Source: a virus. From it: a stretch of DNA of 47,900 nt. The position numbers were made by a program, and so were the translations under genes. The notes beneath the pieces were generated by a model. The model was not told where the DNA came from. It searched no databases and worked only from the letters and a program-made list of their open reading frames with translations. Shown here piece after piece: positions 1 through 47,900 of this stretch (its first letter is position 1; each line of letters opens with the position of its first letter). The stretch is from positions 1 to 47,900 of IMG/VR virus record IMGVR_UViG_3300037349_000216; one strand, 5' to 3'.

Positions 1-200
1 TTCTTCCGAGTGCTCAATATCGTCGCATATGATCTTAGTTGGCCGATCTGCACCGAATCTTGTCCCACGAATTTCAGAGCCAGCGCCAAAGCTCGCAAAT
101 AGAACACCATCGTCTTCACAATAAATCGTGTACTGTGTTTCGCCTGGCGTTTTAGTTCTAAAATGTACTCCGTAATCAGCAATGAGCTTAGGGTTACTAA
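1..200. repeat. Terminal overlap (copy 1) closing the circular genome
   Basis: These 200 bases recur at 47701-47900. The only difference seen is A at 124 versus G at 47824. Both copies lie inside the terL frame, and reading through them joins the two halves of one terminase. The change is synonymous (Ile ATT versus ATC). The simplest reading is that the sequence was read past one full turn of a circular or circularly permuted molecule of about 47.7 kb. A true direct terminal repeat inside terL is unlikely, because it would break the gene. Confidence 0.9.
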
Positions 201-5257: not shown

Positions 5258-5560
5258 ATGGAAACACTAGCTTTTATAGCGTTCAACAGATGGAGAAATA
5301 AACTGGCTAACGGTTACTTCAAAACTGAAGTTATCTGTAAGTCAAAAGGCGGGGAGCCCACCGGAGAAGTGTCCGGTCAAGGAAAGATTTATCGTGGCCC
5401 CTGTCCTTACAGAGAAGAGGAATGGGCTGATTATATTTGCCTAAGAGATTTAGTTGATTACAGAAGACCAAAAACAGAAAGCGGCTATCCGGTATTAGAA
5501 CAAGACCAGTTCGAAACTCTTAGAGGTAGAGTGGAGAGAGCATCGAGGCTAGTTTCATGA
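5258..5560 (+). CDS. Hypothetical early protein
   Basis: A 100-residue soluble protein with a strong GAGGAGG ribosome site preceded by the 5220-5243 hairpin. It is rich in charged residues and has four Cys-containing positions, including a CPYREEEWADYICLRD segment that might bind metal. It overlaps the protease gene by four bases (ATGA). Function unknown. Confidence 0.65.
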   Translation: METLAFIAFNRWRNKLANGYFKTEVICKSKGGEPTGEVSGQGKIYRGPCPYREEEWADYICLRDLVDYRRPKTESGYPVLEQDQFETLRGRVERASRLVS

Positions 5561-6423
5561 TTGCAATTCTTGTGGCCTTGACATGCGTTGCGATTGTTGG
5601 TGGTATTGATATTCTTAAGAGTCGTAACATAAACCCATTCTTATTTAGGAGAAACAAAATGTCAGAGAAAAGAATTAAAGTAATACCGTTCTCTCATAAC
5701 CGAGTGCTGAATTGGAAACCTGGATTTAAGTCCCATAGAAAAGTGCCCCACTCGTTAGAAGCTATGGATCTACCGTCAAACGTTGATCTTCGTGACCAAT
5801 GCTCACCTGTACTAGATCAAGGTCAAGTCGGTAGCTGCTCTGGAAATGCAGCCGCAGGTCTCTTTGATTTCGGTGACACCAGGGGGGCTTCGCTATCCTC
5901 GCGCCTGTTCATATACTGGCATGAGCGTTTCTTAGAGGGCGATACCTCAACAGACGCAGGGGCTACCACCCTGGCGGATGCGTGCCACACCATGATTGAT
6001 AAGGGCGTTGCTTTAGAAGATCCCTTTTGGCCTTACGACCCGTCTAAAGTTCTCGTGTGTCCTACAAGCCAAGCCTTTGGTAACGCTACAAAGCGTAAGA
6101 TCTCAAGCTTCTCAGAGCTTGAGGAATTTAACGACTTGCAGTTATGCCTAGCTAATGGCAAGCCCTTCATGTTTGGTATTCCTGTGTATCAGAGTTTTAT
6201 GGAAGCTCAAGATGGTCAGATCCCGATGCCCGATCCAGACAACGGCGATCAGATACTCGGCGGTCACGCACTTGCATGCGTTGGCTATGATGACGGGTCT
6301 CAGTGTTTTATCTTTAAGAATTCCTGGGGCACGAGTTGGGGCGATAATGGGTTTGGCTATTTGCCTTACGATTACATGTGTCAATTAGCAGACGATTTTT
6401 TCTGCATTACGAAAGGAAAATAA
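5557..6423 (+). CDS. Papain-like (C1A) cysteine protease, possibly membrane-anchored
   Basis: A 288-residue protein. The papain triad is clear: oxyanion Gln and catalytic Cys in DQGQVGSCSGNAA (Cys about 93), His in GGHALACVGY (about 236) and Asn in FKNSWGTSWGDNGFGY (about 255). The first ~34 residues contain a hydrophobic anchor (IAILVALTCVAIVGGI). A second in-frame ATG at 5659 has a better Shine-Dalgarno (AGGAG) and would give a soluble 254-residue form. No long inhibitory propeptide is present. The substrate is unknown; a host protein or phage structural precursor is possible. Confidence 0.92.
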   Translation: MIAILVALTCVAIVGGIDILKSRNINPFLFRRNKMSEKRIKVIPFSHNRVLNWKPGFKSHRKVPHSLEAMDLPSNVDLRDQCSPVLDQGQVGSCSGNAAAGLFDFGDTRGASLSSRLFIYWHERFLEGDTSTDAGATTLADACHTMIDKGVALEDPFWPYDPSKVLVCPTSQAFGNATKRKISSFSELEEFNDLQLCLANGKPFMFGIPVYQSFMEAQDGQIPMPDPDNGDQILGGHALACVGYDDGSQCFIFKNSWGTSWGDNGFGYLPYDYMCQLADDFFCITKGK

Positions 6424-8614: not shown

Positions 8615-8934
8615 TTATCGTCGGGGGCATCCTCATGGGGTGCCTCCTTTTTCTCTGCGACAAGTTTTAAGTGCCGCCCTTTTTCTTGTGGCATTCCTGG
8701 ATGTATCTTTTTAAATAGCTCCACAAGCTCTAAGGCCCTATCCTCATTGATTTGAATCCAATTATGAATAATAAGATGGTGGGTATTAGTGTATTTGAAC
8801 AGGTAGGCGTATGTGTTCGCTATATTGAGTCCTGGCCTATCGTCTGTTTGATCAATGATGGCAGCCGACGGGGTCACGATTCCGTTAACGATTGCGACGA
8901 AATAAACGTAATACCATTTCTTAACGTTGCCCAT
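8605..8934 (-). CDS. Hypothetical protein beside the primase
   Basis: A 109-residue protein starting at the ATG at 8934, eight bases after GGAGGAG; an upstream in-frame GTG at 8943 is less likely. It overlaps the end of the primase-helicase by 14 bases. The first 60 residues are globular-looking (KKWYYVYFVAIVNGIVTP), followed by a charged, disordered tail ending DDKKP. Co-transcription suggests a replication-related role. Confidence 0.65.
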   Translation of the reverse strand: MGNVKKWYYVYFVAIVNGIVTPSAAIIDQTDDRPGLNIANTYAYLFKYTNTHHLIIHNWIQINEDRALELVELFKKIHPGMPQEKGRHLKLVAEKKEAPHEDAPDDKKP

Positions 8935-11251
8935 ATGTTGCACTCCTCCATGTCATGCCTTCAATTACGCGCTCGGATTTTCCGTCAACCTTGATTATCT
9001 TAATTCTGTCTTTATAATTGGGAATAAGCTTTGCTATCCTGCGACCAAAGTCAATCGAGTTAGTGGGCTTAAAGCCATTAAGCTCTGAGTCCTGCTTATA
9101 ATCAGAATACATCTTTTTAGGACTTGCGGCCTTGTCTGGATGATCCATGCAGTTCTCTTTGTACCAGTGAATCACGGTGTTTGATTCTTCCATATAGTTT
9201 GTAATGGCGTCATCAACGGCTGTGCTCTCGCTGAATTTCTTTTGCTTGCATAAACGCCTATAGCCTTCAATGACCAGATTAAAAATCCCTGGCAATTCCT
9301 TTAGAAGTTTATCCTTTATGAAGGGATCTTTTTCGGCAAGTGTAATCACTCGATCAAACGGCACAACTAGAAGCCTTCTAAAGTATCCGTGCGAAACATC
9401 CCAGGTAACGGGAAGCTTATTGCAAAGCAAAATGAGTTTACAAATATTTACGAATTCGTACCCCTGCTTATACAACTGGCGGCCAGTCGTCGCCCCGCCA
9501 CCTATGAGAGCTTTAAAAAATCCTGATTCTATAAGAGCATTGTTGGGAGTTTCTTCACCAACGTTAAATAAGGAGCCGTCAATTCTAAATCTGTTTTCCT
9601 GCTTCTTTAATTCTTCGATTGGTATTGATGTATAGGTGCCCTTTCCCGCCAGGGCTTGGAGAGTTTCTATGAAGGTTGATTTACCGTTTGCACCGTCACC
9701 ACTTAAGATCAAAGCTCTCTGAGCCCAACAAGTGTCTCCGCTGAAGGAATAGCCCATGAACTCCATTAAAACATCTTCGAGATCCTGACGGTCTTGCGTG
9801 ACAAATTTTAAAAATTTCTCCCATTCAGGAGCCTTTGCTTTACCATCATAATCGTAATCTAGAACATAACGAAAGCCATAAGATGGGCTATGAGGGCTTA
9901 ACTCCAGGGTATCTAGATCTAGTACTCCATTTTTAAAATTCATTTTCTTTTTTGTTGTATCAGTGAACCATGTTGGCTCTTTGATATTTGTACACTGAAC
10001 TATTCCCCTAAATTCTGCACGCATTATATTGGTGGCTGGCGGGTTGAAGTGTTGTTGAGCAAAATTTTCTAGGTAGATGTCTTCCATACCTTGCCAATGC
10101 GTTCCGGTCCATATGAGGCAAGCTTTAGAGTTGCCTAAAATAATGTAGGGTTGCTTTCGCTCAAAGAATTTTCTTAAATCATCATAATTAGGCTTTCCAG
10201 GCTTAGGCGGAGCATTTTGTACGGGTATCATATTGTGAAAACCTGTATGCTCTGTTTTTATAAATTCTGCGCCTCTAATCATGATAGGCGATTCTACTTT
10301 TTCAAAGTGTGGGCATTTTTGACAATCAAATCCTAGTTTTTGAATCCCTTTGCAAGTTCTAGGGCCAGAAGCCTCAAGTGCTTGGTCGATCTTTGTTTCT
10401 GTTTCGGCATGGGAATAAGTCTTATGTCCAGACGAGTAGTCGTGTGCAATTTTTCTATCGAGTCTGCCAGTAATCGAAAGTGCTCCATACCACTGAGCTT
10501 CTGAGATCTCATTTGGCTTCTCTTTAGTCCATTGAAGGAAACGGCAACCTTCCAATACAGCGTTTGTATCATTGGGAATTTTTGTTGCCACTCGGGAATT
10601 AATTTGATCCTCGGCTGAGACTTCAGGAAGACCAGAGAGCTTTGTAATGTCGAATTCTCTAGGGGCAAATCCCTTAGTTGAGAGTACTTTGCAATACTTT
10701 GTTTCCTTATCTTTCTTACGATTCTCTGTTTCTGGATAGCGCATGATGCGTCTCGGATCAAACACAGCAGGGTCAGTAACACCAGGAAGGTTAGCCCTGG
10801 CGAGAGCAGCATTAATCTTGTCGCAAAGTGCATTGTAATGTCTCCTATTTTTATCAAAGTACACAGCTTCAGTAATGGGCGTTTTCATAGCTACTATGAA
10901 GTGAAGCCCGTTGCCTGAATCAATGACCGCGAACCCCGAACCAATAACCGATTTAACTTGAGCCGCGTATTTTTGTGGAATATCAAGAGTAATTTTATCT
11001 ATGTCAAAAACCATTACTTCTTGTTTAACAAATTCTCGTTTCCCGAGTCCTTGAGCTACAGTATAGTAAGTATTGAACCATTCATTTTTTGGAAGTTTAG
11101 TTAAATATTTTTTTGGATTTTTGAGCATATCTAAGAAGTCTGTAAAACCGAGCCCCGATTTAGCAAGCCTTGTATCTGTGACAAGCCATTCTTCAGCTTT
11201 CTTATTATAGTATTCGCGCAGATTTAGGATTTGATGCTTAAGTTCTTCCAT
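8921..11251 (-). CDS. Primase-helicase fusion (archaeo-eukaryotic primase plus SF3 helicase)
   Basis: A 776-residue replication protein. The N-terminal primase-polymerase domain has a DxD metal motif (VMVFDIDKI, about 79-87), GNGLHFIVAM (about 113-122) and an Arg-rich DPAVFDPRRIMRYP segment. The C-terminal superfamily 3 helicase has Walker A GDGANGKST (about 517-525), an acidic VGEETP segment and a sensor-like LLCNKLP, with a D5-type region before it. This layout is that of P4-alpha/D5-like replicases, which prime and unwind at an origin. It lies on the opposite strand from the polymerase and nuclease genes. Confidence 0.93.
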   Translation of the reverse strand: MEELKHQILNLREYYNKKAEEWLVTDTRLAKSGLGFTDFLDMLKNPKKYLTKLPKNEWFNTYYTVAQGLGKREFVKQEVMVFDIDKITLDIPQKYAAQVKSVIGSGFAVIDSGNGLHFIVAMKTPITEAVYFDKNRRHYNALCDKINAALARANLPGVTDPAVFDPRRIMRYPETENRKKDKETKYCKVLSTKGFAPREFDITKLSGLPEVSAEDQINSRVATKIPNDTNAVLEGCRFLQWTKEKPNEISEAQWYGALSITGRLDRKIAHDYSSGHKTYSHAETETKIDQALEASGPRTCKGIQKLGFDCQKCPHFEKVESPIMIRGAEFIKTEHTGFHNMIPVQNAPPKPGKPNYDDLRKFFERKQPYIILGNSKACLIWTGTHWQGMEDIYLENFAQQHFNPPATNIMRAEFRGIVQCTNIKEPTWFTDTTKKKMNFKNGVLDLDTLELSPHSPSYGFRYVLDYDYDGKAKAPEWEKFLKFVTQDRQDLEDVLMEFMGYSFSGDTCWAQRALILSGDGANGKSTFIETLQALAGKGTYTSIPIEELKKQENRFRIDGSLFNVGEETPNNALIESGFFKALIGGGATTGRQLYKQGYEFVNICKLILLCNKLPVTWDVSHGYFRRLLVVPFDRVITLAEKDPFIKDKLLKELPGIFNLVIEGYRRLCKQKKFSESTAVDDAITNYMEESNTVIHWYKENCMDHPDKAASPKKMYSDYKQDSELNGFKPTNSIDFGRRIAKLIPNYKDRIKIIKVDGKSERVIEGMTWRSATYGQR

Positions 11252-13092: not shown

Positions 13093-13302
13093 ATGAAACG
13101 TGAAGATCAAATAAGACAAGCCGCAATCAAACTTTTTGGTGATAAAAAAGACGGTTGGGTTGTTGATAGTGCCTTCGCCGGTTTTATTAATGGCGCTAGA
13201 TGGGCTGATATAAATATTGACCCTCTTCAAAAAGAAGCATGGGACCGACTTATCGAAGAAAATAATCGGCTTAAAACAGGTTCGGAGCCAGAATCAAAAT
13301 GA
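13093..13302 (+). CDS. Hypothetical protein
   Basis: A 69-residue soluble protein coupled to the helicase gene by a 4-base overlap. A segment GWVVDSAFAGFINGARWAD is flanked by charged helices, a pattern common in small phage proteins next to replication genes. No function assigned. Confidence 0.6.
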   Translation: MKREDQIRQAAIKLFGDKKDGWVVDSAFAGFINGARWADINIDPLQKEAWDRLIEENNRLKTGSEPESK

Positions 13303-14807
13303 ACTATTTTATAAAGCCGTGGAAGCATCAGCTAAAAGCTATTGAGAAGGCGCGAAAGTTTCGAGACTTTGCCCTGCTATTTGATATGGGAACGGGTAAG
13401 ACCGGAACCGCTATAAACATAGTTAGAGAACTTTGCGCAACTGAGAAAAGGCTTTTACGAACTTTAGTCCTTTGCCCCGTCATCGTAGTCAACAATTGGA
13501 AGCGTGAATTTAAAATGCATTCCAAGATCTCACCACAAGACGTTATTTGCCTAGCGGGAGCGGGGGCAAAGCGTGCCGAATTGTTCTCTAAGTCCACAAC
13601 AGACGACACAGGTAAGATGACGGGAGCAAAGGTTTTTATTACTAACTATGAAGCAATGGAAATGGATGAACTATATAAGCTTATCCAGACCTGGAGTCCA
13701 GAAGTTTTGATTTGCGACGAAGCCCATAGGCTTAAGAATCATCAGTCAGTTAGAGCTAAACGAGTTGTCGGCATTGCTGATCATGCCTTGCATAGATACA
13801 TCTTAACCGGAACACCTATTCTTAATTCAGCGATGGACATTTTCAACCAATATAGAATCTTAGATAGCGGGCAAACTTTTTCAGTCTCCGATCCTGACTT
13901 CCCTGGCGGCAGGCGCCCTATGAATTTCTATGAATTCAGAGCTATATATTTCGAGGATCAAAATAAAGGAATGCCTTCAAACGTTCATTTTCCAAAATGG
14001 GTACCAAGAGCTGAGACTTACGAAGAGTTAAATAAAAAGATTTATAAAAAAGCGATGCGCGTTTTAAAAACCGAGTGCTTAGATCTTCCGCCACTTATTC
14101 GCCAGAGAGTTGATGTCACCATGGGTAAAGAACAGGCACGAATCTATAAAGATATGAAGACTGAGTACATAGCTTGGGTAAATGAGCATGAGAAATCAGG
14201 CGAACCCCGAGCCGTTGTTGCACAGATGGCGCTCACTAAAATATTGCGTCTTCAACAAATAGTAAGCGGCTTTTGTAAAACTGAAGATGGTAAAGAAATT
14301 ACTTTAAAAGATAATCCAAGAATAAAGGTGCTTGCAGATTTGCTCGAAGATATAACCCCCGCCCATAAAGTTATTGTATGGGCATGCTTCAAGGAGAACT
14401 ATCGTGCCATCGAAAACCTTTGCGATAAGCTTCACATTAAGTTTTGTCATATTTACGGTGGCGTCAAGGATGTGGCCGAACAGGAAAGATTGTTTAGAAC
14501 AGATCCGACTTATAGGGTCATGGTTGCTAATCAACGTGCGGGCGGTATCGGTATTAATCTTGTGGAAGATGGAACTATTGTTGAAGATGGCCAGAGCGCA
14601 TATTCACTCTTCTACTCCAAGGGAGCTAGCCTTGCTGATGACTTACAAGCTGAGAGTCGTAACCATCGCGGAGGTGCGGAGGTTTACAAAAATGTGGTCA
14701 GAATAGATCTTGTAACTCCTAATACTGTCGACGAACTTTTCATGGAATCTTTAAAAAATAAGCAAGAAATTTCAAATCAAATTTTAGATTGGAAAGATAT
14801 TTTATGA
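13299..14807 (+). CDS. SNF2-type superfamily 2 DNA helicase/translocase
   Basis: A 502-residue protein with motif I DMGTGKT (about 29-35), a DEAH box in VLICDEAHRLKN (about 140), motif III-like LTGTPI, and a second RecA domain ending in the SNF2 signature QAESRNHRGGA (near 450). The full two-domain core is present without extra domains. It likely acts as an ATP-driven duplex translocase in replication or recombination. The csrA gene follows with an ATGA overlap. Confidence 0.93.
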   Translation: MNYFIKPWKHQLKAIEKARKFRDFALLFDMGTGKTGTAINIVRELCATEKRLLRTLVLCPVIVVNNWKREFKMHSKISPQDVICLAGAGAKRAELFSKSTTDDTGKMTGAKVFITNYEAMEMDELYKLIQTWSPEVLICDEAHRLKNHQSVRAKRVVGIADHALHRYILTGTPILNSAMDIFNQYRILDSGQTFSVSDPDFPGGRRPMNFYEFRAIYFEDQNKGMPSNVHFPKWVPRAETYEELNKKIYKKAMRVLKTECLDLPPLIRQRVDVTMGKEQARIYKDMKTEYIAWVNEHEKSGEPRAVVAQMALTKILRLQQIVSGFCKTEDGKEITLKDNPRIKVLADLLEDITPAHKVIVWACFKENYRAIENLCDKLHIKFCHIYGGVKDVAEQERLFRTDPTYRVMVANQRAGGIGINLVEDGTIVEDGQSAYSLFYSKGASLADDLQAESRNHRGGAEVYKNVVRIDLVTPNTVDELFMESLKNKQEISNQILDWKDIL

Positions 14808-15037
14808 GCGGCTTCTATAGGCCATTTATGAAAAAATCTTCTTTAGGCGGTGGTTTAGTTCTCCAGCGTAGTCCTGGAGAAATGATTTGGATTGCTAACG
14901 GCGAAATAAAGCTTCAAGTCGTTGAGATAGTTGGGCAACGAGTTAGAATCGCAATTAAGTGTAATAAAGACCTGCTGATTCAGCGGGTAGATAAAGAGGG
15001 TGCAATGGAGTACCCAGAAAAGGAAGGGTCAGGATGA
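14804..15037 (+). CDS. csrA: CsrA/RsmA-like RNA-binding regulator
   Basis: A 77-residue protein; ATG 14804 overlaps the helicase stop codon. After a 20-residue N-terminal extension, the sequence aligns by eye with CsrA: LVLQRSPGEMIWI matches the first strands, and VVEIVGQRVRIAIKC then KDLLIQR match beta-3 to beta-5. The two Arg residues that contact GGA-loop RNA in CsrA (after the first strand, and in the last strand) have counterparts here. CsrA dimers bind leader RNAs and block ribosomes or stabilise messages. A phage copy could redirect host carbon metabolism, motility or biofilm genes, or time phage translation. Confidence 0.85.
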   Translation: MSGFYRPFMKKSSLGGGLVLQRSPGEMIWIANGEIKLQVVEIVGQRVRIAIKCNKDLLIQRVDKEGAMEYPEKEGSG

Positions 15038-15525
15038 ATCAAGAAGCTCAAGCGGGCGAAGTTAAGCCCCACATGGATTTTGGGGGGAAAACCCTCAACC
15101 TCGCAGAAATGGAAGCGTTGTTAAAAGAATACAACGTTACCTGGGATGAATACGAGGCGGCTAAAGAAATTTCAAGTAATGCTTACGAGAAATTTGCTGA
15201 AGTCGAATCCCGAATCATGAAGGCTTTGGGCGACGCTCAAAAAACTTCATACAAAGGAGAAGAGGGTACCGTTACGGTATCCGTTACTCCAACGGTTAAA
15301 GTTCCGGAGAATCTAGACGAGAAGAAAAAACTTTTTGCCTACATTCAGAAAAGAAGTAAAGAGATGTTTCTGGGACTCGTCTCAATTAATAGTGCAACCC
15401 TTAACAAATGGTATAACGAAACAAGAGAAGCTGCGGGCGATCCTCCAGGGTTTTCTATTCCTGGGATTATGGCCGGAGCTGATCGAGTAAAACTGCTGTA
15501 TAAAGCAGCAAAGAAAGGAAAATAA
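15034..15525 (+). CDS. Hypothetical replication-module protein
   Basis: A 163-residue protein starting within the csrA stop (ATGA). The N-terminal half is a helical region (LLKEYNVTWDEYEAAKEI), followed by a beta segment with a repetitive TVTVSVTPTVKV, and a C-terminal helical part ending in Lys. It sits directly before an SSB-like gene. No known family recognised. Confidence 0.65.
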   Translation: MNQEAQAGEVKPHMDFGGKTLNLAEMEALLKEYNVTWDEYEAAKEISSNAYEKFAEVESRIMKALGDAQKTSYKGEEGTVTVSVTPTVKVPENLDEKKKLFAYIQKRSKEMFLGLVSINSATLNKWYNETREAAGDPPGFSIPGIMAGADRVKLLYKAAKKGK

Positions 15526-15526
15526 C

Positions 15527-16342
15527 ATGGCCAGTACACAAACAAGGGGGAAAGAAGTGAAGACCACCAACAAGGCAATCGTTGCAAAGGGAGCGGCAAA
15601 TATAGCGACAAAAATCGCTGATATGTCAACCTTTGATGCGCCCATCATCACACAACGCGAGCGAATTATTCCGCGTATTGTTCCAATGCAAGGTTTAAGT
15701 AAAGCTGTTGCCGCAGGTGACGCTAAGTTTGGTGAGTTCCGCGACTCCGCTACAGGTGAGCTTTTGGGAGATATCAATAATCCCGTAACAGTTCTGCCTT
15801 TGGTTTGCTTTAAACAATATTTAGTTAAGAAGCTTGAGAAGGGCGGAACCTTTAAGTTTGTAAAGATTATTCCGAACGTAGAGGAACTTCCCTATGAGCA
15901 AAAAACTAAAGAAGGTGAATTCAAAAATGAAGCTATGCTTACCTTTTTGGTTCTATTGCAAAAGCAACTTAAGGAAAGAGATCCTGTGCCATACGCCGTT
16001 AGCTTTAAAAGCTCAAGCTTTGGCGGAGGAAAGAAGCTCATAGATCAGATGTATATTAGAAATGCTCCTCGCGGCGAAGAAGTTAAGCCTGAAGACGCAT
16101 GGAAGTTTTGCCCGCTCTCTATGGTTATGGATATCACTGGAGCTAAGAAGACCAATGATAAGGGCACATTCATTGTTATGGATGTGAAGCAAAAAAGGGC
16201 GGCCACTGAGAAAGAAGTTTACTTAGCTTACAACACTCTCCAATTGTACCGCGATAAATCGGTCAAGGTTGACAACGCTGTATTTAACGAAGAAGCGGAA
16301 GCACCTGAGAGAGAAGTTAGCGAAGACGAAGACGAGTTTTAA
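15527..16342 (+). CDS. Probable single-stranded-DNA-binding protein
   Basis: A 271-residue protein with a basic N-terminus, a globular middle (residues about 45-235) and a strongly acidic tail ending EVSEDEDEF. An acidic tail with a terminal Phe is a hallmark of SSBs, where it recruits partner enzymes. The position between helicase, exonuclease and polymerase supports this role. The core was not matched to an OB-fold motif, so the call rests on tail and context. Confidence 0.6.
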   Translation: MASTQTRGKEVKTTNKAIVAKGAANIATKIADMSTFDAPIITQRERIIPRIVPMQGLSKAVAAGDAKFGEFRDSATGELLGDINNPVTVLPLVCFKQYLVKKLEKGGTFKFVKIIPNVEELPYEQKTKEGEFKNEAMLTFLVLLQKQLKERDPVPYAVSFKSSSFGGGKKLIDQMYIRNAPRGEEVKPEDAWKFCPLSMVMDITGAKKTNDKGTFIVMDVKQKRAATEKEVYLAYNTLQLYRDKSVKVDNAVFNEEAEAPEREVSEDEDEF

Positions 16343-16437: not shown

Positions 16438-16737
16438 ATGAATGAAAATCAGAGCAAGGTTTCAGCCCTGGCGCAACCAAAGGCCCCTAATCCTGCCGAC
16501 AGATTAGAGGAAGTGATGCGCACTCTTCAACAAACAAGAGAATTGGGCAACATTAAGAATCACATGATGGCTTTACAAGAATTACATAAGCAAATCGACT
16601 CGACTCAGAATTTTATTTTGCAGAGCTATGACAAGCATCAAGGAATAAGACAGGAAGATCTTAAACATCTACACGCGCTTAGAGAAGGTTATCTAGACTC
16701 TATGGCGCGCTACTATCAGGAGCTAAATAAAAAATGA
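16438..16737 (+). CDS. Helical hypothetical protein
   Basis: A 99-residue protein with an ACGGAGGAA ribosome site. After a Pro/Ala-rich start, nearly the whole chain is charged helix (RLEEVMRTLQQTRE, then LREGYLDSMARYYQEL), likely a small helical bundle or coiled coil. It is coupled by four bases to the exonuclease gene. Function unknown; possibly an exonuclease accessory. Confidence 0.65.
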   Translation: MNENQSKVSALAQPKAPNPADRLEEVMRTLQQTRELGNIKNHMMALQELHKQIDSTQNFILQSYDKHQGIRQEDLKHLHALREGYLDSMARYYQELNKK

Positions 16738-17468
16738 TCGTATTAGGATTCGATACGGAGACTACAGGTCTTGATGTTAAGGAAGACTTCGTCATTCAGA
16801 TCGGCGCAGTGCTTTGGGATACAGAGGCAAAAACAAAGCACGCTAAAATGAAGATGGACCGTTTAATTAAAGGTGCTCATATTAAATCTATGAAGCCCGA
16901 CGCCATCGCAAGCCACGGTATTAGCCTCGAAGATCTAAAAAAATACGGCGTTCCTTTTGAGATTGCCTACGTTGAATTTATGGCTATGGCAAGAGAAGCC
17001 GATTATATAGTGGCTCACAATGCTCCTTATGATCGTGAGATTTTTAACAATAACTGTTTATTTCTAGGGGTAGAACCCATCAACAAAGGGTGGATTGATA
17101 CGAGTACGGATATCGAATTTCCAACTCATGTTACCACTAGGAAATTGGGTTATCTTGCTACTGAGCACGGCTTTATCAATCCGTTCCCTCACGATGCTGC
17201 CAGCGACGTATTAACAATGTTAAGCATTGCTCAAAAATACGATTGGAAGCATACCTTAAAGTATGCAAAAGCGCCTAATATCACCATTAAGGCTGAAACT
17301 AATTTTGCACAAAAAGAGCTTGCAAAAAAGCAGAATTACAGGTGGGATGGAGCTGCAAAAGAATGGACGAAGACCATTAAAGATTTTCAATTAGAAGAAA
17401 CAAAGAAAGCGGCCTCCGAAGCAGGTTTTAAAATAACGATTCTTAAAAAGGAGAGCCAAAATGTCTAG
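16734..17468 (+). CDS. DnaQ-like 3'-5' exonuclease
   Basis: A 244-residue protein with the three exonuclease motifs: FDTETTGL (Exo I, about 6-13), AHNAPYDREIF (Exo II, about 97) and HDAASDVLTML (Exo III, about 157), i.e. a DEDDh enzyme. A C-terminal extension with KELAKKQNYRWDGAAKEW resembles the small domain often fused to such phage exonucleases. It may proofread or trim DNA ends alongside the polymerase. Confidence 0.9.
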   Translation: MIVLGFDTETTGLDVKEDFVIQIGAVLWDTEAKTKHAKMKMDRLIKGAHIKSMKPDAIASHGISLEDLKKYGVPFEIAYVEFMAMAREADYIVAHNAPYDREIFNNNCLFLGVEPINKGWIDTSTDIEFPTHVTTRKLGYLATEHGFINPFPHDAASDVLTMLSIAQKYDWKHTLKYAKAPNITIKAETNFAQKELAKKQNYRWDGAAKEWTKTIKDFQLEETKKAASEAGFKITILKKESQNV

Positions 17469-17733
17469 AGGTTTAACAGCACTCGACAAGTGTCGAAAAG
17501 AAGTTAGGTCAAAAGTTTTGTACGCCAGGGTGAGGCCGTCTCGCTTGGCATGGGTTCACAATCAAATGAAGGCAACCGGACACAAAAGTAAGTCTGAGTT
17601 TGTCGACCAGCTTGTGAGCTTACTTATGGATCTATACGGGTCCAAGAAAGCAAAGAGTGATAGTCACACGAAAAAACTTTCTAAGCGTAATAAGAAAGCT
17701 AAAAAAGCCAGGTCAGTACGGGCTCGACACTGA
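17461..17733 (+). CDS. RHH-like basic DNA-binding protein
   Basis: A 90-residue protein coupled to the exonuclease gene. Residues about 21-57 (YARVRPSRLAWVHNQM, then HKSKSEFVDQLVSLLMD) follow the strand-helix-helix order of ribbon-helix-helix proteins. A very basic tail of about 25 residues follows. The last 77 bases also encode the start of the DNA polymerase in another frame. Confidence 0.55.
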   Translation: MSRGLTALDKCRKEVRSKVLYARVRPSRLAWVHNQMKATGHKSKSEFVDQLVSLLMDLYGSKKAKSDSHTKKLSKRNKKAKKARSVRARH

Positions 17734-19555
17734 GACCACTGGCCTTCGACAGACAGATAGGCTTTTTTCTATAATATTTTCTGACGACGATGGTGGGTAT
17801 TATTTTAATTTTAATTCGTCTATAGATCATGAAGGGGGCATTGCCCCCTACGATCAAACACTTCCTCTTGAGTGGCTTGAAAAGCTTAGTCCTATACTAG
17901 AAAACAAAGGCTCATTATTCTTTCTCAGTAACGCCAAGTTTGATTTAGGGATGCTTGCTAAGGAAGGTCTGAGCGTCATGGCTCTGATACATGACACGGA
18001 AGTGATCGAAAGAGTCCTTAAAAATAATCGCATGAAATACGGCCTTGCCTCTATTGCACCTAACTATGGATTTAAAAAAGACGAGAGCGTTGACGAGTAC
18101 ATTACAAAACACAAACTGTATACAGAAGTCTCTATCCCAGGAAAAGACAAGAGAGTAAAAAACAAACATTTTGATAGGGTACCTTTAGGCATAATTGCCC
18201 CTTACGGTATCGTGGATGCGGTTATAGTTCGTGCTATAGGAATGGCTCAACGTGAAACTTTAAAATTTCATGATATGGCAGCGCCTAGCTACCAACCCCC
18301 GCAAATCCCCCTGGTGAAAAACGAATACAAATTAACTAAGGCTTGTTTTAGAATTGAAAAGGCAGGAATTCATATTGATCGAGTTTATACCCAAAAGGCT
18401 CTTAACTATTGTCTTAAGGAGCAACGTGCAAAAGAAAAATTGTTTGAAAAAGAAACAGGAGTCGAGTTTGAAGACTCAGCGAGCACAATTGCTGAGGTTT
18501 TTTCAAAGAACGGCGTGGAACTTCCGAAAACTAAAACGGGAAAACCCTGTACTGCTAAAGGGGTGCTCGATGCACTTGAAAATCCAATCGCCGATAGGAT
18601 TCGGGAAATCAGGGGATTACAAAAACTGGCCTCCACATATTATTCCTCATTTCTCTACCACGCCGATAAAGAAGATCTAATACATGCCAACATGCGCCAG
18701 GGGGGGACTGAAACTTTACGCTTCTCTTACTCCGATCCTAACCTTCAGAATCTTCCAAAGGAAGACGATGAAGATGACAGGCTAAAGCCTTACATTGTGC
18801 GACGCTGTTTTACCCCTCTTGATTCTGATTGGTGCTTCGTACCTATCGACTTTAAGCAACAAGAATATAGAGTCATGGCCGACTATGCAGGTGAGACAGA
18901 ACTAATCAAAGCCATAATGAATGGCGAGGATGTTCACGAAGCTACGGCCAGAATGCTGGGAATCTCCAGGCAATACGCTAAGACGCTCAATTTCGGGCTC
19001 CTTTACGGCATGGGGGCTGGGAAGCTGGCGTATGCCCTAAAGATCTCGCTATCGGACGCCCATAAACTTAAAAACGCATATTTTGAGCGACTTCCAATGG
19101 TCAAGAGATTTGTTCGTCGAGTAATGGATCAGGGAATAGAAAAAGGCTACGTCTTTAATTGGAACGGCTTCAAATCTCATATTTCAAGCTCGGAGTTCGC
19201 CTATATTCTCCCAAATCACATCGTGCAAGGGAGTTGTGCTCAAGTTATCAGAGTCGCCATGGTTGAAATTGACGATGCTTTACGAAAATATAAACTAAGG
19301 TCTAGGGTAGTGCTTCAGGTCCATGATGAGCTTCTCTTTCAAATGCATCACACAGAATTCGATAAAATTCCTTTATTTAAGAAAATAATGGAGAATGTGT
19401 ATAGACCTAGAAACGGTATGATTTTAGAATGCAGTGTGGATCATTCTTGGAAGTCATTCGCTAAATTTGATATGAAAAAAGGGATACCGGATGTCAAAGA
19501 AGCCAGAAACCTTATTCAAGGAAAGAATACGCCCGCTATTAGAAGCCCTGCCTAA
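17657..19555 (+). CDS. DNA polymerase, family A
   Basis: A 632-residue replicative polymerase. The N-terminal 3'-5' exonuclease domain begins with GLDTETTGL (22-30). The polymerase domain has SDPNLQNLP, motif A PIDFKQQEYR (near 397), motif B RQYAKTLNFGLLYGMG (near 437-452) and motif C VHDELLFQ (near 555). No 5'-nuclease domain is present. The start is GTG 17657 inside the preceding gene with a weak ribosome site, so expression may depend on coupling. The 3' end overlaps the VRR-NUC gene by 65 bases. Confidence 0.95.
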   Translation: MIVTRKNFLSVIRKLKKPGQYGLDTETTGLRQTDRLFSIIFSDDDGGYYFNFNSSIDHEGGIAPYDQTLPLEWLEKLSPILENKGSLFFLSNAKFDLGMLAKEGLSVMALIHDTEVIERVLKNNRMKYGLASIAPNYGFKKDESVDEYITKHKLYTEVSIPGKDKRVKNKHFDRVPLGIIAPYGIVDAVIVRAIGMAQRETLKFHDMAAPSYQPPQIPLVKNEYKLTKACFRIEKAGIHIDRVYTQKALNYCLKEQRAKEKLFEKETGVEFEDSASTIAEVFSKNGVELPKTKTGKPCTAKGVLDALENPIADRIREIRGLQKLASTYYSSFLYHADKEDLIHANMRQGGTETLRFSYSDPNLQNLPKEDDEDDRLKPYIVRRCFTPLDSDWCFVPIDFKQQEYRVMADYAGETELIKAIMNGEDVHEATARMLGISRQYAKTLNFGLLYGMGAGKLAYALKISLSDAHKLKNAYFERLPMVKRFVRRVMDQGIEKGYVFNWNGFKSHISSSEFAYILPNHIVQGSCAQVIRVAMVEIDDALRKYKLRSRVVLQVHDELLFQMHHTEFDKIPLFKKIMENVYRPRNGMILECSVDHSWKSFAKFDMKKGIPDVKEARNLIQGKNTPAIRSPA

Positions 19556-21812: not shown

Positions 21813-22028
21813 TCACTTTCTTGTTCCTTCAGTTTCAACGGAGTCCCAGCAATTTCCGAGTTCTTCTGAGAGACGATTAAGTGTGCTTTGTAACTCTCCA
21901 ATTGTGCGTTCATGGACTTCAACTCTATCGCTAAGGCGAACAAGCCATACAACAACCACAACGGTAACAATAACAAGATGAAGCGAAATGGCAGTTTTAG
22001 AGCCGATCCTAGACTCTTCATTTTTCAT
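21813..22028 (-). CDS. Small membrane coiled-coil protein (inner-spanin-like)
   Basis: A 71-residue protein overlapping the often-predicted 5' end of the endolysin in another frame. One transmembrane helix (SLHLVIVTVVVVVWLVRL) is followed by a heptad-type coil (DRVEVHERTIGELQSTLNRL, then SEELGN). Codons are GNN-rich and T/A-ending like neighbouring genes, and GGGTAAG precedes ATG 22028. The stop lies 10 bases before endolysin ATG 21802. The N-in, periplasmic-coil topology resembles inner-membrane spanins, but no certain outer partner is seen. Confidence 0.6.
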   Translation of the reverse strand: MKNEESRIGSKTAISLHLVIVTVVVVVWLVRLSDRVEVHERTIGELQSTLNRLSEELGNCWDSVETEGTRK

Positions 22029-23139
22029 TGAACTTACCCGCTGCCCATTGTGCAACACTCTTTGGTTCTGGGAGCCAAGAGCGTAAAGTTTTCTCGTCAA
22101 TTTTATCCACCGTGACCTCCTCTTTTGCATTGGGGCAATGGTCAACAATATCCCACATGCCTCCAACACCTAGATTAGTTTCTCGATACTGCCAAACGCC
22201 TTTTCTAAAATGCGTAATGTAGTCTGGATGTTTGCAAGTCGCAATGTAACCAATATGACAGTGGCCTGAGTTTGGGTCCTTTGGATCTGTAGAAGCTGCC
22301 ATATGTAATGGCGACGAATCGTTTGTGATTAAAACCTTACAACGTTGAAGCATCCACACACTTTCTGCTCTAGTGAGTTTATTTCTTAAATCAATACAGC
22401 CATGAGTTTCAACATTCACAGTGGATCTTTTATCAAGAGTATCTGCGCCAATGATGACAGGTGTAATACCTTCTTTTCTAAGATCCAATAAAACTTTATC
22501 CCACCAATCTTTAGGAAATGTTTTTGTCTCCCAATGCTTTCCAGGATGAACAAAAGCAAAGTTTCCTTCGCAAAGTTTATGCGGGTCATTCCCATGCGCA
22601 AGAAAAGCTGGGTAATTAGAACTTAGATAAATCTCACGCTCTGAAACTGGAAGCTGCATTCTTAAAGCGTTAAGGGCTGGATGATCTACACAATTCACAA
22701 TGCAATGGGAGAAAAATTCCCAACTCAAATGATCAGAAGGATAGATCATAGAAAACACGAAATATTTATCCCAAATCGGATGAACCTTGTCAGTGTCGAT
22801 CACATCGTCAAAATAAAGATGCTTAAAAAGTTCTTGATACGGTGTCGCCAGGGTCATTTTGCATTTAGGTCTAAAATTCTTAAGCGCATGACGTAAAGTG
22901 GGCTCTGAGCAAATCTGATCGCCGAGGCCGCCCCAGGTGTTAAATAAAAGATTGTTCTCAACGCCGTTTTGAATCGCAATCATTGTGCGATAAGAAGGAA
23001 TCATCACAGACGGCATTACAACATTATCACTTAAAGAAGGCTTTGCTTTTGGATCTCCACTTAAGATCTTAAGCTCCTTCTTTGTCGAACGATCAGGATC
23101 TTCTATTCTCTCTGCGCTTAATTTTTTAGTAGAGTCCAT
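22018..23139 (-). CDS. GT9-family heptosyltransferase-like protein
   Basis: A 373-residue protein with the glycosyltransferase family 9 layout: GGLGDQICSEP (about 70-80) as the N-terminal Gly loop, VHPGKHWETKTFPKDWW (about 197-213) at the domain junction, VIIGA (about 228) and TNDSSPLHMAAS (272-283) as the nucleotide-sugar loop. Bacterial relatives add heptose to LPS core from ADP-heptose. The gene lies between the tail fibre and endolysin genes, so the product may alter host LPS to block reinfection or stop progeny re-adsorbing. A virion-modifying role is also possible. Confidence 0.85.
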   Translation of the reverse strand: MDSTKKLSAERIEDPDRSTKKELKILSGDPKAKPSLSDNVVMPSVMIPSYRTMIAIQNGVENNLLFNTWGGLGDQICSEPTLRHALKNFRPKCKMTLATPYQELFKHLYFDDVIDTDKVHPIWDKYFVFSMIYPSDHLSWEFFSHCIVNCVDHPALNALRMQLPVSEREIYLSSNYPAFLAHGNDPHKLCEGNFAFVHPGKHWETKTFPKDWWDKVLLDLRKEGITPVIIGADTLDKRSTVNVETHGCIDLRNKLTRAESVWMLQRCKVLITNDSSPLHMAASTDPKDPNSGHCHIGYIATCKHPDYITHFRKGVWQYRETNLGVGGMWDIVDHCPNAKEEVTVDKIDEKTLRSWLPEPKSVAQWAAGKFNEK

Positions 23140-23153
23140 TACCCCACCCCTTT

Positions 23154-24731
23154 CTATTGTTGATAAGCAATCGTAACTTGCTTGGCATTATAGCCTATTA
23201 TCGTTGTCCCGAATCTGGTAGCCCAAGTTAAACTAACAGCGTAACTTACCCCTGGAGTAACCGAAATTTTTGTTCTAGTTCCAGGAAGATTTACGCCCAT
23301 AGGTCTTATCGGACCTGCAACTAATGTCGGACTAGAAATATCTGCATTGTTTCCCGTTCCACATCCGCCTAGAGCATTAAATCCCCAAGAATAAAGTTGT
23401 CCGTATTGATCAACAGCATAAGCGGTAACTCCGCTACTTGATCCATCCGATCCGTAGGTTGACCACATCCATGTAAATGTGTGCCCACCAGCTACCGCAA
23501 CCGGAGAACTAACCGCAACCGTAGATCCTGGATTTAAATTTGCGCCCAACATTCCATTAGCATTTGATCCCCAGGCCCATAAATTTCCAGATACATCTAA
23601 ACCGAACATTGTATTTTTACTTGAGGTTTTTGAGGGGGCTGCAAATAAAACAGCAAAGCTTGTGCCTCCAACAACTTTAACGGGAGAGCTAACGCCGGTA
23701 GTACTTGGACTAAGATTTGCTCCTAATTGGCCCGCAATATTATCTCCCCATAACCAAATATTTCCGGAGAGATCCACTCCGCCGCATCCACCAAAAGATT
23801 GATTGCAGCCTTTTATTAAAGAAGCAAAGCTAATTCCACCTACAACAGCCACAGGAGAACTACGAGAAACTGTGTCACCTGTACCAAGATTTCCGCCTCC
23901 GTTGCCTCCCCAAGCCCACGCTTTTCCTGTGCCGTCTAATGCCACAAAAAAGTTTGCTGCGTAGAATCCACCGATTACTTGTGTGAAAGTATGAGAGCCA
24001 AGAACAGCGACAGGAGAGCTACGAGAGTTTCTATCTCCCACACCTAATTCGCCAGTTATATTTGTGCCCCATGACCAAGCGTTTCCACTAGTATCTAGGC
24101 CGAGAGAAGTATTTGCGGCTAGCACAACAGAGGCCCAAGTTTTTGCGCCCAGAACCAAAGTGGGTGAGCTTCTATTTACCGTGTCGCCTACACCTAACTC
24201 GCCGTTAGGGTTATTTCCCCAAGCCCATAAATTTCCATCCGGAGTTAATGCCATAACGGTGTTATCTCCAAAAGATCCATCTATAATTTTTGAAAATCTT
24301 GCCGATCCCACAACAGCAACAGGTGAGCTTGTAGACTCTGAGTCGGCATTATGACCGCCCGATCCGTTAGGTAAAAGTCCCCAGGTGTAACAATTTCCGT
24401 ACTCATCTAAAGCACTAGCTGAAAAATCTATGTTATAAACTTGGCGCCATTTAGTCCCAGGAACAGAAACTAAAACCGGAGAAGATACAGGAAGATTTGT
24501 GCCTGTCCCCAGCAACATTCCTGGGCCACCGTTACCAATTTGTCCACCTTGACCCCAGGCCCACATATTCTTATTTTGATCTATAAGAAACATGTTTCCC
24601 CAGGCACCTTGCCATTGATTTAAATCTACGGCTTGTGAGGGATAATCAACGATTGCCTCAATACTTGTAACTCCAGCGGGAGGAGTAAACGTGCCGCTAG
24701 CTGTAAAAACTTTGGTTGCTTGATTTCCCAT
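23154..24731 (-). CDS. RCC1-like beta-propeller tail fibre
   Basis: A 525-residue protein with about eight RCC1-type repeats, each with a W-x-WG-x-N-x-x-G-x-LG core (for example NLWAWGNNPNGELGVGD and NAWSWGTNITGELGVGD) and SSPVAV between blades. They should fold into a disc-like propeller. An N-terminal ~30-residue segment and a C-terminal ~45-residue beta region flank it. It is coupled to the upstream fibre gene by a TAATG junction. Propellers of this kind in virion tips usually bind surface ligands, so this is a receptor-binding candidate. Confidence 0.85.
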   Translation of the reverse strand: MGNQATKVFTASGTFTPPAGVTSIEAIVDYPSQAVDLNQWQGAWGNMFLIDQNKNMWAWGQGGQIGNGGPGMLLGTGTNLPVSSPVLVSVPGTKWRQVYNIDFSASALDEYGNCYTWGLLPNGSGGHNADSESTSSPVAVVGSARFSKIIDGSFGDNTVMALTPDGNLWAWGNNPNGELGVGDTVNRSSPTLVLGAKTWASVVLAANTSLGLDTSGNAWSWGTNITGELGVGDRNSRSSPVAVLGSHTFTQVIGGFYAANFFVALDGTGKAWAWGGNGGGNLGTGDTVSRSSPVAVVGGISFASLIKGCNQSFGGCGGVDLSGNIWLWGDNIAGQLGANLSPSTTGVSSPVKVVGGTSFAVLFAAPSKTSSKNTMFGLDVSGNLWAWGSNANGMLGANLNPGSTVAVSSPVAVAGGHTFTWMWSTYGSDGSSSGVTAYAVDQYGQLYSWGFNALGGCGTGNNADISSPTLVAGPIRPMGVNLPGTRTKISVTPGVSYAVSLTWATRFGTTIIGYNAKQVTIAYQQ

Positions 24732-46621: not shown

Positions 46622-47900
46622 TATCTGCCTCCCATGACGTTAAGTCCTAACGCCATTGGTTTATATCTTCCATTGCATAAATTCCAAAGCATCTCTAAAC
46701 AATCTGGCGCATCATCGTGAGCACCACGAGGAAATTCCTCGATCTGTCTCATCATCGTTACACTGAGCGCACGATTAAACAAGATGTTTCCATTCGTCAC
46801 TTTTGGCTCCAATGAAAAGATACGCTCTTCTTTGTTTTTGATTTGTTCAACTTCATACCAAGGTATCTTGATTTGCTTCTTAAAGGCCACCTGGCGACGT
46901 TTTTGTTCGGCCATTAGATTATCGCTTAAGATGTCACGATAAAGGTTTGTTTCAACTACGAACTTCTGAAAATCATATTGATCGTGATACTCAAAAATCT
47001 GAGCCGTGAACTTAGTCGGCGGCGCTACTTTAGTCCAGTCGCTATGAACAAATACGCGCTTAGTATCTAAATGCTTTAGTCCGACAAGGATACAACTATA
47101 GTCAGGTGTTTTGCCAACACGGGCTTTGGTTTGACCCGTAGCTGGATCAAGCGCGCCGAAGGCGTTAAGGTATTGTCCCTGACTATCTCGAAACTCAGAC
47201 CAGGGTATCGTGCGACCAGACTTTTCAATAAAGAGTCCTTCGTTGGTTTCACGGTAGTAATGAATTTCGTCAAAGACCGTGTCTTCGCCGCCCATCGGTT
47301 CATTTTGTTTCTCCTTCATAAATGCGCGTTTGCCTGTCTCAACCATTTCCTTCATCAAATCTAAATACGATTCGTGAGGTTCCCACAAAACATCGGTAGC
47401 ATTTAACATTAGTTTTTTATTTTTATCGTAGAATTGTAGCGCGTCTGTTTGTCGATTAGGATTATCTAAATCTATATAAATCTTTTTCCATTGGTCCCAG
47501 AGCTTTTCGTGGTCGCTCCAGGATTTAACGGCTCTGTAGATCTTTGCATCATACGCTGGGTTCTTCGTGAGCCCAGCGAGTAATGAGTCAGAATGGAGAA
47601 TCGTCCCAATGACGATGATATTGGTATTTTTATTTCCGATTTTACTGATGACTTGGAGATACCAGTCTTCGTATTTTTTTCTAATTGCTTCGTTCTCAAC
47701 TTCTTCCGAGTGCTCAATATCGTCGCATATGATCTTAGTTGGCCGATCTGCACCGAATCTTGTCCCACGAATTTCAGAGCCAGCGCCAAAGCTCGCAAAT
47801 AGAACACCATCGTCTTCACAATAGATCGTGTACTGTGTTTCGCCTGGCGTTTTAGTTCTAAAATGTACTCCGTAATCAGCAATGAGCTTAGGGTTACTAA
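46621..47900 (-). CDS. terL: Terminase large subunit, C-terminal part (starts at 543)
   Basis: Continuation of the terL frame that begins at 543 and enters through the circle junction. This part holds the ATPase Walker B segment IICDDI (duplicated at both window ends), a coupling segment VIGTILHSDSLL, and the RNase H-like nuclease domain beginning with GALDPATG (Asp about 366 of the whole protein). A further acidic patch (HDDAPDCLEMLWNL) lies close to the end. The stop codon is shared with the portal start. With one overlap removed, the whole protein has about 540 residues. Confidence 0.95.
   Translation of the reverse strand, partial: SNPKLIADYGVHFRTKTPGETQYTIYCEDDGVLFASFGAGSEIRGTRFGADRPTKIICDDIEHSEEVENEAIRKKYEDWYLQVISKIGNKNTNIIVIGTILHSDSLLAGLTKNPAYDAKIYRAVKSWSDHEKLWDQWKKIYIDLDNPNRQTDALQFYDKNKKLMLNATDVLWEPHESYLDLMKEMVETGKRAFMKEKQNEPMGGEDTVFDEIHYYRETNEGLFIEKSGRTIPWSEFRDSQGQYLNAFGALDPATGQTKARVGKTPDYSCILVGLKHLDTKRVFVHSDWTKVAPPTKFTAQIFEYHDQYDFQKFVVETNLYRDILSDNLMAEQKRRQVAFKKQIKIPWYEVEQIKNKEERIFSLEPKVTNGNILFNRALSVTMMRQIEEFPRGAHDDAPDCLEMLWNLCNGRYKPMALGLNVMGGR
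47701..47900. repeat. Terminal overlap (copy 2) closing the circular genome
   Basis: Second copy of the 200-base block found at 1-200, identical except for G at 47824. Removing one copy restores an uninterrupted terL and an unbroken late operon. The single mismatch suggests population variation or a sequencing error rather than an assembler-generated exact k-mer overlap. Confidence 0.9.

Follow-up and report, generated by a model that had tools for sequence, protein, structure and literature searches.

Does the short open reading frame embedded among the replication genes of an uncultured phage encode a working member of the CsrA/RsmA family, and if so, on whose transcripts would it act? The frame lies at positions 14804 to 15037 (+) of the window, that is, the whole stretch of DNA that was analyzed, which is a single phage record of 47,900 bases. 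The first and last 200 bases of the window (1 to 200 and 47701 to 47900) form a direct repeat with a single mismatch (A/G at position 124), and given this near identity, the window probably represents a complete genome with a circular map. Judged by its gene content, which includes tail sheath, major head, and portal proteins, the phage is contractile tailed. For host assignment, the pair of SNF2 proteins was compared against genome contigs, yielding a sole match (26%) in a Planctomycetia MAG, and the capsid matches, all below 60% identity, were in phages of unrelated hosts. Elsewhere, the phage encodes a papain-family cysteine protease with an N-terminal hydrophobic stretch (5557 to 6423, +; PF00112, 5.3e-16) and an RCC1-repeat protein (23154 to 24731, −; PF00415, 2.9e-36) that is perhaps a beta-propeller adhesin or part of a tail fiber. 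The RCC1-repeat gene adjoins a gene for a glycosyltransferase family 9-like protein (22018 to 23139, −; PF01075, 5.4e-8).

The initial annotation had assigned the frame to the CsrA family, and profile comparison bears this out. The 77-amino-acid product, with an ATG start and a TGA stop, matches the Pfam CsrA profile PF02599 with 34.7 bits (E = 1.8e-8), above the curated cutoff of 27 bits, with residues 18 to 61 aligned to profile positions 2 to 44 of 53; no other CsrA match occurs in the 47.9-kb record. The homolog in the nearest phage found, IMGVR_UViG_3300022602_000008 (hereafter L018), likewise exceeds the cutoff (35.1 bits). The G+C content of the gene (0.432) equals that of the genome (0.424) and thus gives no hint of recent acquisition. 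Residues 17 to 61 make up the predicted core, beta1 to beta5, and residues 1 to 16 form an N-terminal extension. The protein shares with Escherichia coli CsrA the predicted beta1-beta5 core, L2, L4, R6, R44, and an acidic residue at position 46, but is only 25% identical to it and differs in the 16-residue extension, in one extra loop residue after beta2, in the loss of R7 and I47, and in the lack of a recognizable C-terminal helix.

The family match raises the question of whether the RNA-binding face is preserved. In E. coli, the positions with the most severe RNA-binding phenotypes are R44, V42, L2, I47, V40, L4, R6, and R7, and in CsrA of E. coli or Campylobacter jejuni, alanine substitutions at such positions are among those most damaging to RNA binding or regulation (PMC6692469). 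In the alignment, L2, L4, R6, and R44 are unchanged in the window protein; V40, V42, and E46, the last of which forms a salt bridge with R6 in CsrA (PMC6692469), are replaced by Leu, Ile, and Asp, and R7, A36, and I47 are replaced by Ser, Cys, and Lys. The two RNA-contacting arginines that the initial annotation had reported are thus present, as R22 (R6 of E. coli CsrA) and R61 (R44). Their absence from close relatives had been named as grounds for rejecting the idea, and L018, the closest relative, has both. The L018 protein carries L, I, R, I, I, and E at the positions of L2, L4, R6, V40, V42, and E46, and Lys and Ser at those of R7 and I47. Hence, L2, R6, and R44 are identical in the two phages and L4, V40, V42, and E46 are kept or conservatively replaced; Arg44, the essential residue of beta5, is present in all 11 CsrA sequences compared. 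R7 and I47, which are sensitive positions in E. coli, are not kept in the window protein, but they also vary among other phage CsrA proteins and are therefore not family defining. The frame is intact in both phages even though their CsrA proteins are only 34% identical, and an RNA face that survives so much divergence speaks for a functional RNA binder.

A structure was predicted for the single chain from a two-sequence alignment. The model is of moderate quality (pLDDT of 62 overall and about 80 in the core; pTM of 0.42): the block of central strands reaches a pLDDT of 79 to 82, and the outer strands and the ends are poor. All of the 15 best Foldseek matches of the model in the PDB are CsrA/RsmA chains, with probabilities of 0.93 to 1.00 for the first 14 of the 15 and a best E value of only 0.08. 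The usual C-terminal helix of CsrA is not recognizable: residues 63 to 77 are modeled with a pLDDT of <50 and without a helix, and the Pfam match ends at beta5, position 44 of 53. With most contact residues kept, the protein probably forms the usual strand-swapped dimer, which would probably bind GGA-bearing RNA through beta1 and beta5.

The N-terminal extension had been described as 20 residues long. Its presence stands, but the length does not: from the ATG at 14804, 16 residues (codons 14804 to 14851, +) precede the position corresponding to Met1, and an in-frame alternative start at 14828 would leave 8. In the L018 protein, the extension is 11 residues long, counted from the sole ATG, GTG, or TTG codon available as a start upstream of the core, and both extensions contain an F-x-KKS motif, which makes the extension a real feature of the pair. 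The initial annotation had suggested that the extension could alter dimer packing; in the model of the window protein, nearly all of its residues have a pLDDT of <50. Since the extension is located at the start of beta1, a strand that takes part in the inter-subunit sheet of CsrA (PMC6692469), and carries the shared motif in both phages, the protein could be imagined to associate with host CsrA, or with the antagonists of CsrA, and to act as a dominant-negative or sequestering factor instead of regulating mRNAs directly, the extension being the altered part. We consider this improbable, because R6, R44, and the hydrophobic contacts, for which a nonbinding decoy would have no need, are kept in both phages. 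A slimmer chance still attaches to the proposal that the two proteins represent a distinct phage CsrA subfamily in which the beta1 extension modifies how dimers pair or which RNAs are chosen, with the host Csr network being taken over rather than mimicked during replication.

The position of the gene within a replication operon, as initially proposed, is confirmed by the annotation of its neighbors, which follow one another in a run. Upstream is a SNF2-family helicase gene (13299 to 14807, +; PF00176, 5.5e-29; phrog_62, 3.3e-99), whose TGA stop (14805 to 14807) overlaps the csrA ATG (14804 to 14806) as ATGA; an identical overlap joins the csrA stop to the ATG of the following gene at 15034. 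The gene that begins there (15034 to 15525, +) gives only a weak match to DUF7307 (Pam3 gp33-like; PF23984, 21.4 bits, below the cutoff of 27), and its homolog in L018, 47% identical, scores 27.7 bits. It is followed by genes for a Pam3 Gp34-like protein of the same module (15527 to 16342, +; PF23977, 8.6e-13), an RNase T/DnaQ-type 3′-5′ exonuclease (16734 to 17468, +; PF00929, 3.1e-14; phrog_192, 1.1e-30), and a family A DNA polymerase (17657 to 19555, +; PF00476, 3.9e-71). A D5-type primase/helicase is encoded farther upstream on the opposite strand (8921 to 11251, −; PF19263, PF08706; phrog_864, 2.3e-79). The gene is, then, integrated into a phage operon in a phage genome through overlapping starts and stops. 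From the overlap, csrA may be translationally coupled to the SNF2 helicase gene, and the gene order and overlaps suggest co-expression of CsrA with the replication proteins.

Comparison with related phages indicates how csrA came to occupy this place. Alignment searches with the SNF2 helicase retrieved 47 viral contigs, including 33 (L018 to L050) at ≥37% identity, and a CsrA match was found in only 1 of these 33, namely L018. The two phages are about 59 to 60% identical in SNF2, 58% in the polymerases, and 34% in CsrA. The L018 gene occupies the same interval of the replication operon, with SNF2 and a dATP/dGTP diphosphohydrolase gene on its upstream side and the gp33-like gene downstream, and shares with the window gene the F-x-KKS extension, R6, and R44; it differs in the shorter extension, in the diphosphohydrolase gene that precedes it, and in an extra 167-amino-acid gene that directly follows it. 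The orthology of the two genes would rest on place and extension, given that the 34% identity is no higher than that between the window protein and some other CsrA proteins and that a tree of 11 CsrA sequences contained no supported fork and left the two unresolved. Among the more remote relatives of the module, about 30 in number and some of them perhaps fragmentary contigs, csrA was not found; nor was there a CsrA match in the stretch covered of a polymerase-based relative (L071), and further scans for close relatives yielded none besides L018. Two candidates from a single-protein search of viral contigs (L002 and L003) were rejected because the matches fall within long frames that read differently and lack a CsrA profile match; a match in Lactococcus phage PLg-TB25 lies inside a 482-amino-acid frame and was also discarded.

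In 10 relatives, SNF2 directly or almost directly abuts the gp33-like gene, leaving no room for csrA, and in several others, different small genes fill the junction: a 113-amino-acid product is encoded there in L020, three genes in L021, and a 63-amino-acid product in L025. By gene content, the junction after SNF2 in L018 to L050 is a putative cargo hot spot, and the lack of csrA in the distant relatives marks this gene as apparent cargo gained, or kept, only in the sub-lineage of the window phage and L018. That csrA is found in only 2 of about 34 related phages, with other small genes at the same junction in other members, might suggest a passenger that has little or no effect on infection or has acquired a function unrelated to GGA-bearing RNA. 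Such a passenger would hardly be expected to remain intact and overlapping in two phages with CsrA proteins this divergent and with the RNA-contact residues preserved, and we hold this explanation to be very improbable.

If the protein binds RNA, its targets could be sought among phage or host transcripts. The initial annotation had suggested that the phage CsrA might time the translation of phage leaders bearing GGA loops, a suggestion that gains no statistical support from GGA counts around 60 phage gene starts in three zones. The counts were 37 in the zone from −60 to −20 (control, 37.6 ± 5.2) and 18 in the zone from 0 to +20 (control, 18.2), and the excess between −20 and 0 is that given by Shine-Dalgarno sites; with no enrichment beyond these sites, a phage-wide regulon is not supported. 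A narrower version has CsrA controlling mRNAs of the phage itself, for instance through autorepression at the overlapping starts or at the start of the gp33-like gene directly downstream, and thereby timing early genes; it draws on the leader of the 15034 start, which contains three GGA triplets, two of them in predicted hairpin loops at −27 and −2 (minimum-energy fold), and on the tight gene overlaps, through which a single binding event could control several genes. However, a GGA lies in a predicted hairpin loop at 16 of the 60 starts and one other start (35884) likewise has two, so that the 15034 leader is not exceptional and does not count as evidence; moreover, the gene after csrA differs in L018. 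Regulation of phage mRNAs accordingly appears unlikely. An Rfam search detected neither a CsrB/RsmZ-like RNA nor any other family.

Host mRNAs are the likelier targets, a view favored by exclusion and by the published correlation between the presence of CsrA in phages and in their hosts (Campa et al., PMC8450108), although the host of this phage may lack a Csr network. CsrA would most likely act early in infection on host transcripts, blocking the access of ribosomes to a subset of mRNAs such as those of metabolism, motility, or defense genes, and in this way it may override the carbon storage and motility network of the host, as initially suggested. Taken as a whole, the reading we prefer, to which we assign a probability of roughly 0.6, is that the frame encodes a genuine, divergent CsrA/RsmA-family protein, carried as sub-lineage cargo at the SNF2/gp33-like junction, that regulates host transcripts early in infection.

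Phage-encoded CsrA is not a new idea. Sobrero and Valverde reported csrA in 30 of 2,517 phage genomes (PMC7366521), and Campa et al., who screened GenBank and IMG/VR using a CsrA/RsmA profile derived from PF02599 matches, proposed anti-CRISPR action for the phage proteins, RsmA being a repressor of CRISPR-Cas (PMC8450108). Burkholderia phage JC1 also carries CsrA, and the protein may be present in the virion (PMC9144972). Like the window phage, the catalogued carriers and JC1 are tailed phages, of diverse kinds, for which host manipulation or CRISPR suppression has been proposed; our survey of the literature on phage CsrA found no natural phage member with a function tested by experiment. In our phage collection, 94 records match E. 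coli CsrA, among them Vibrio phage VvAW1, whose CsrA-like regulator (I904_gp26) is similarly encoded among replication and recombination genes, overlapping a DEDD exonuclease gene upstream and an HNH endonuclease gene downstream; unlike the window protein, it has a canonical N terminus, is 70 amino acids long, and is 57% identical to E. coli CsrA. Other locations differ from that in the window: csrA lies between the portal and major capsid genes in BcepMigl and in a region adjoining a repressor gene in Pseudomonas phages F116 and PP9W.

Because such genes have already been described in many phages, the window csrA is a real but largely ordinary case of phage-encoded CsrA, and its divergence and extension are its only unusual points. 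Coming from an uncultured phage, it does not make the question of what phage CsrA does any easier to test. With it, the known phage CsrA proteins gain a divergent member, and the case indicates that a conserved replication module of uncultured contractile-tailed phages can acquire or retain csrA at one fixed junction. Should the protein bind RNA, it would join the examples of phages that redirect host translation at the posttranscriptional level.
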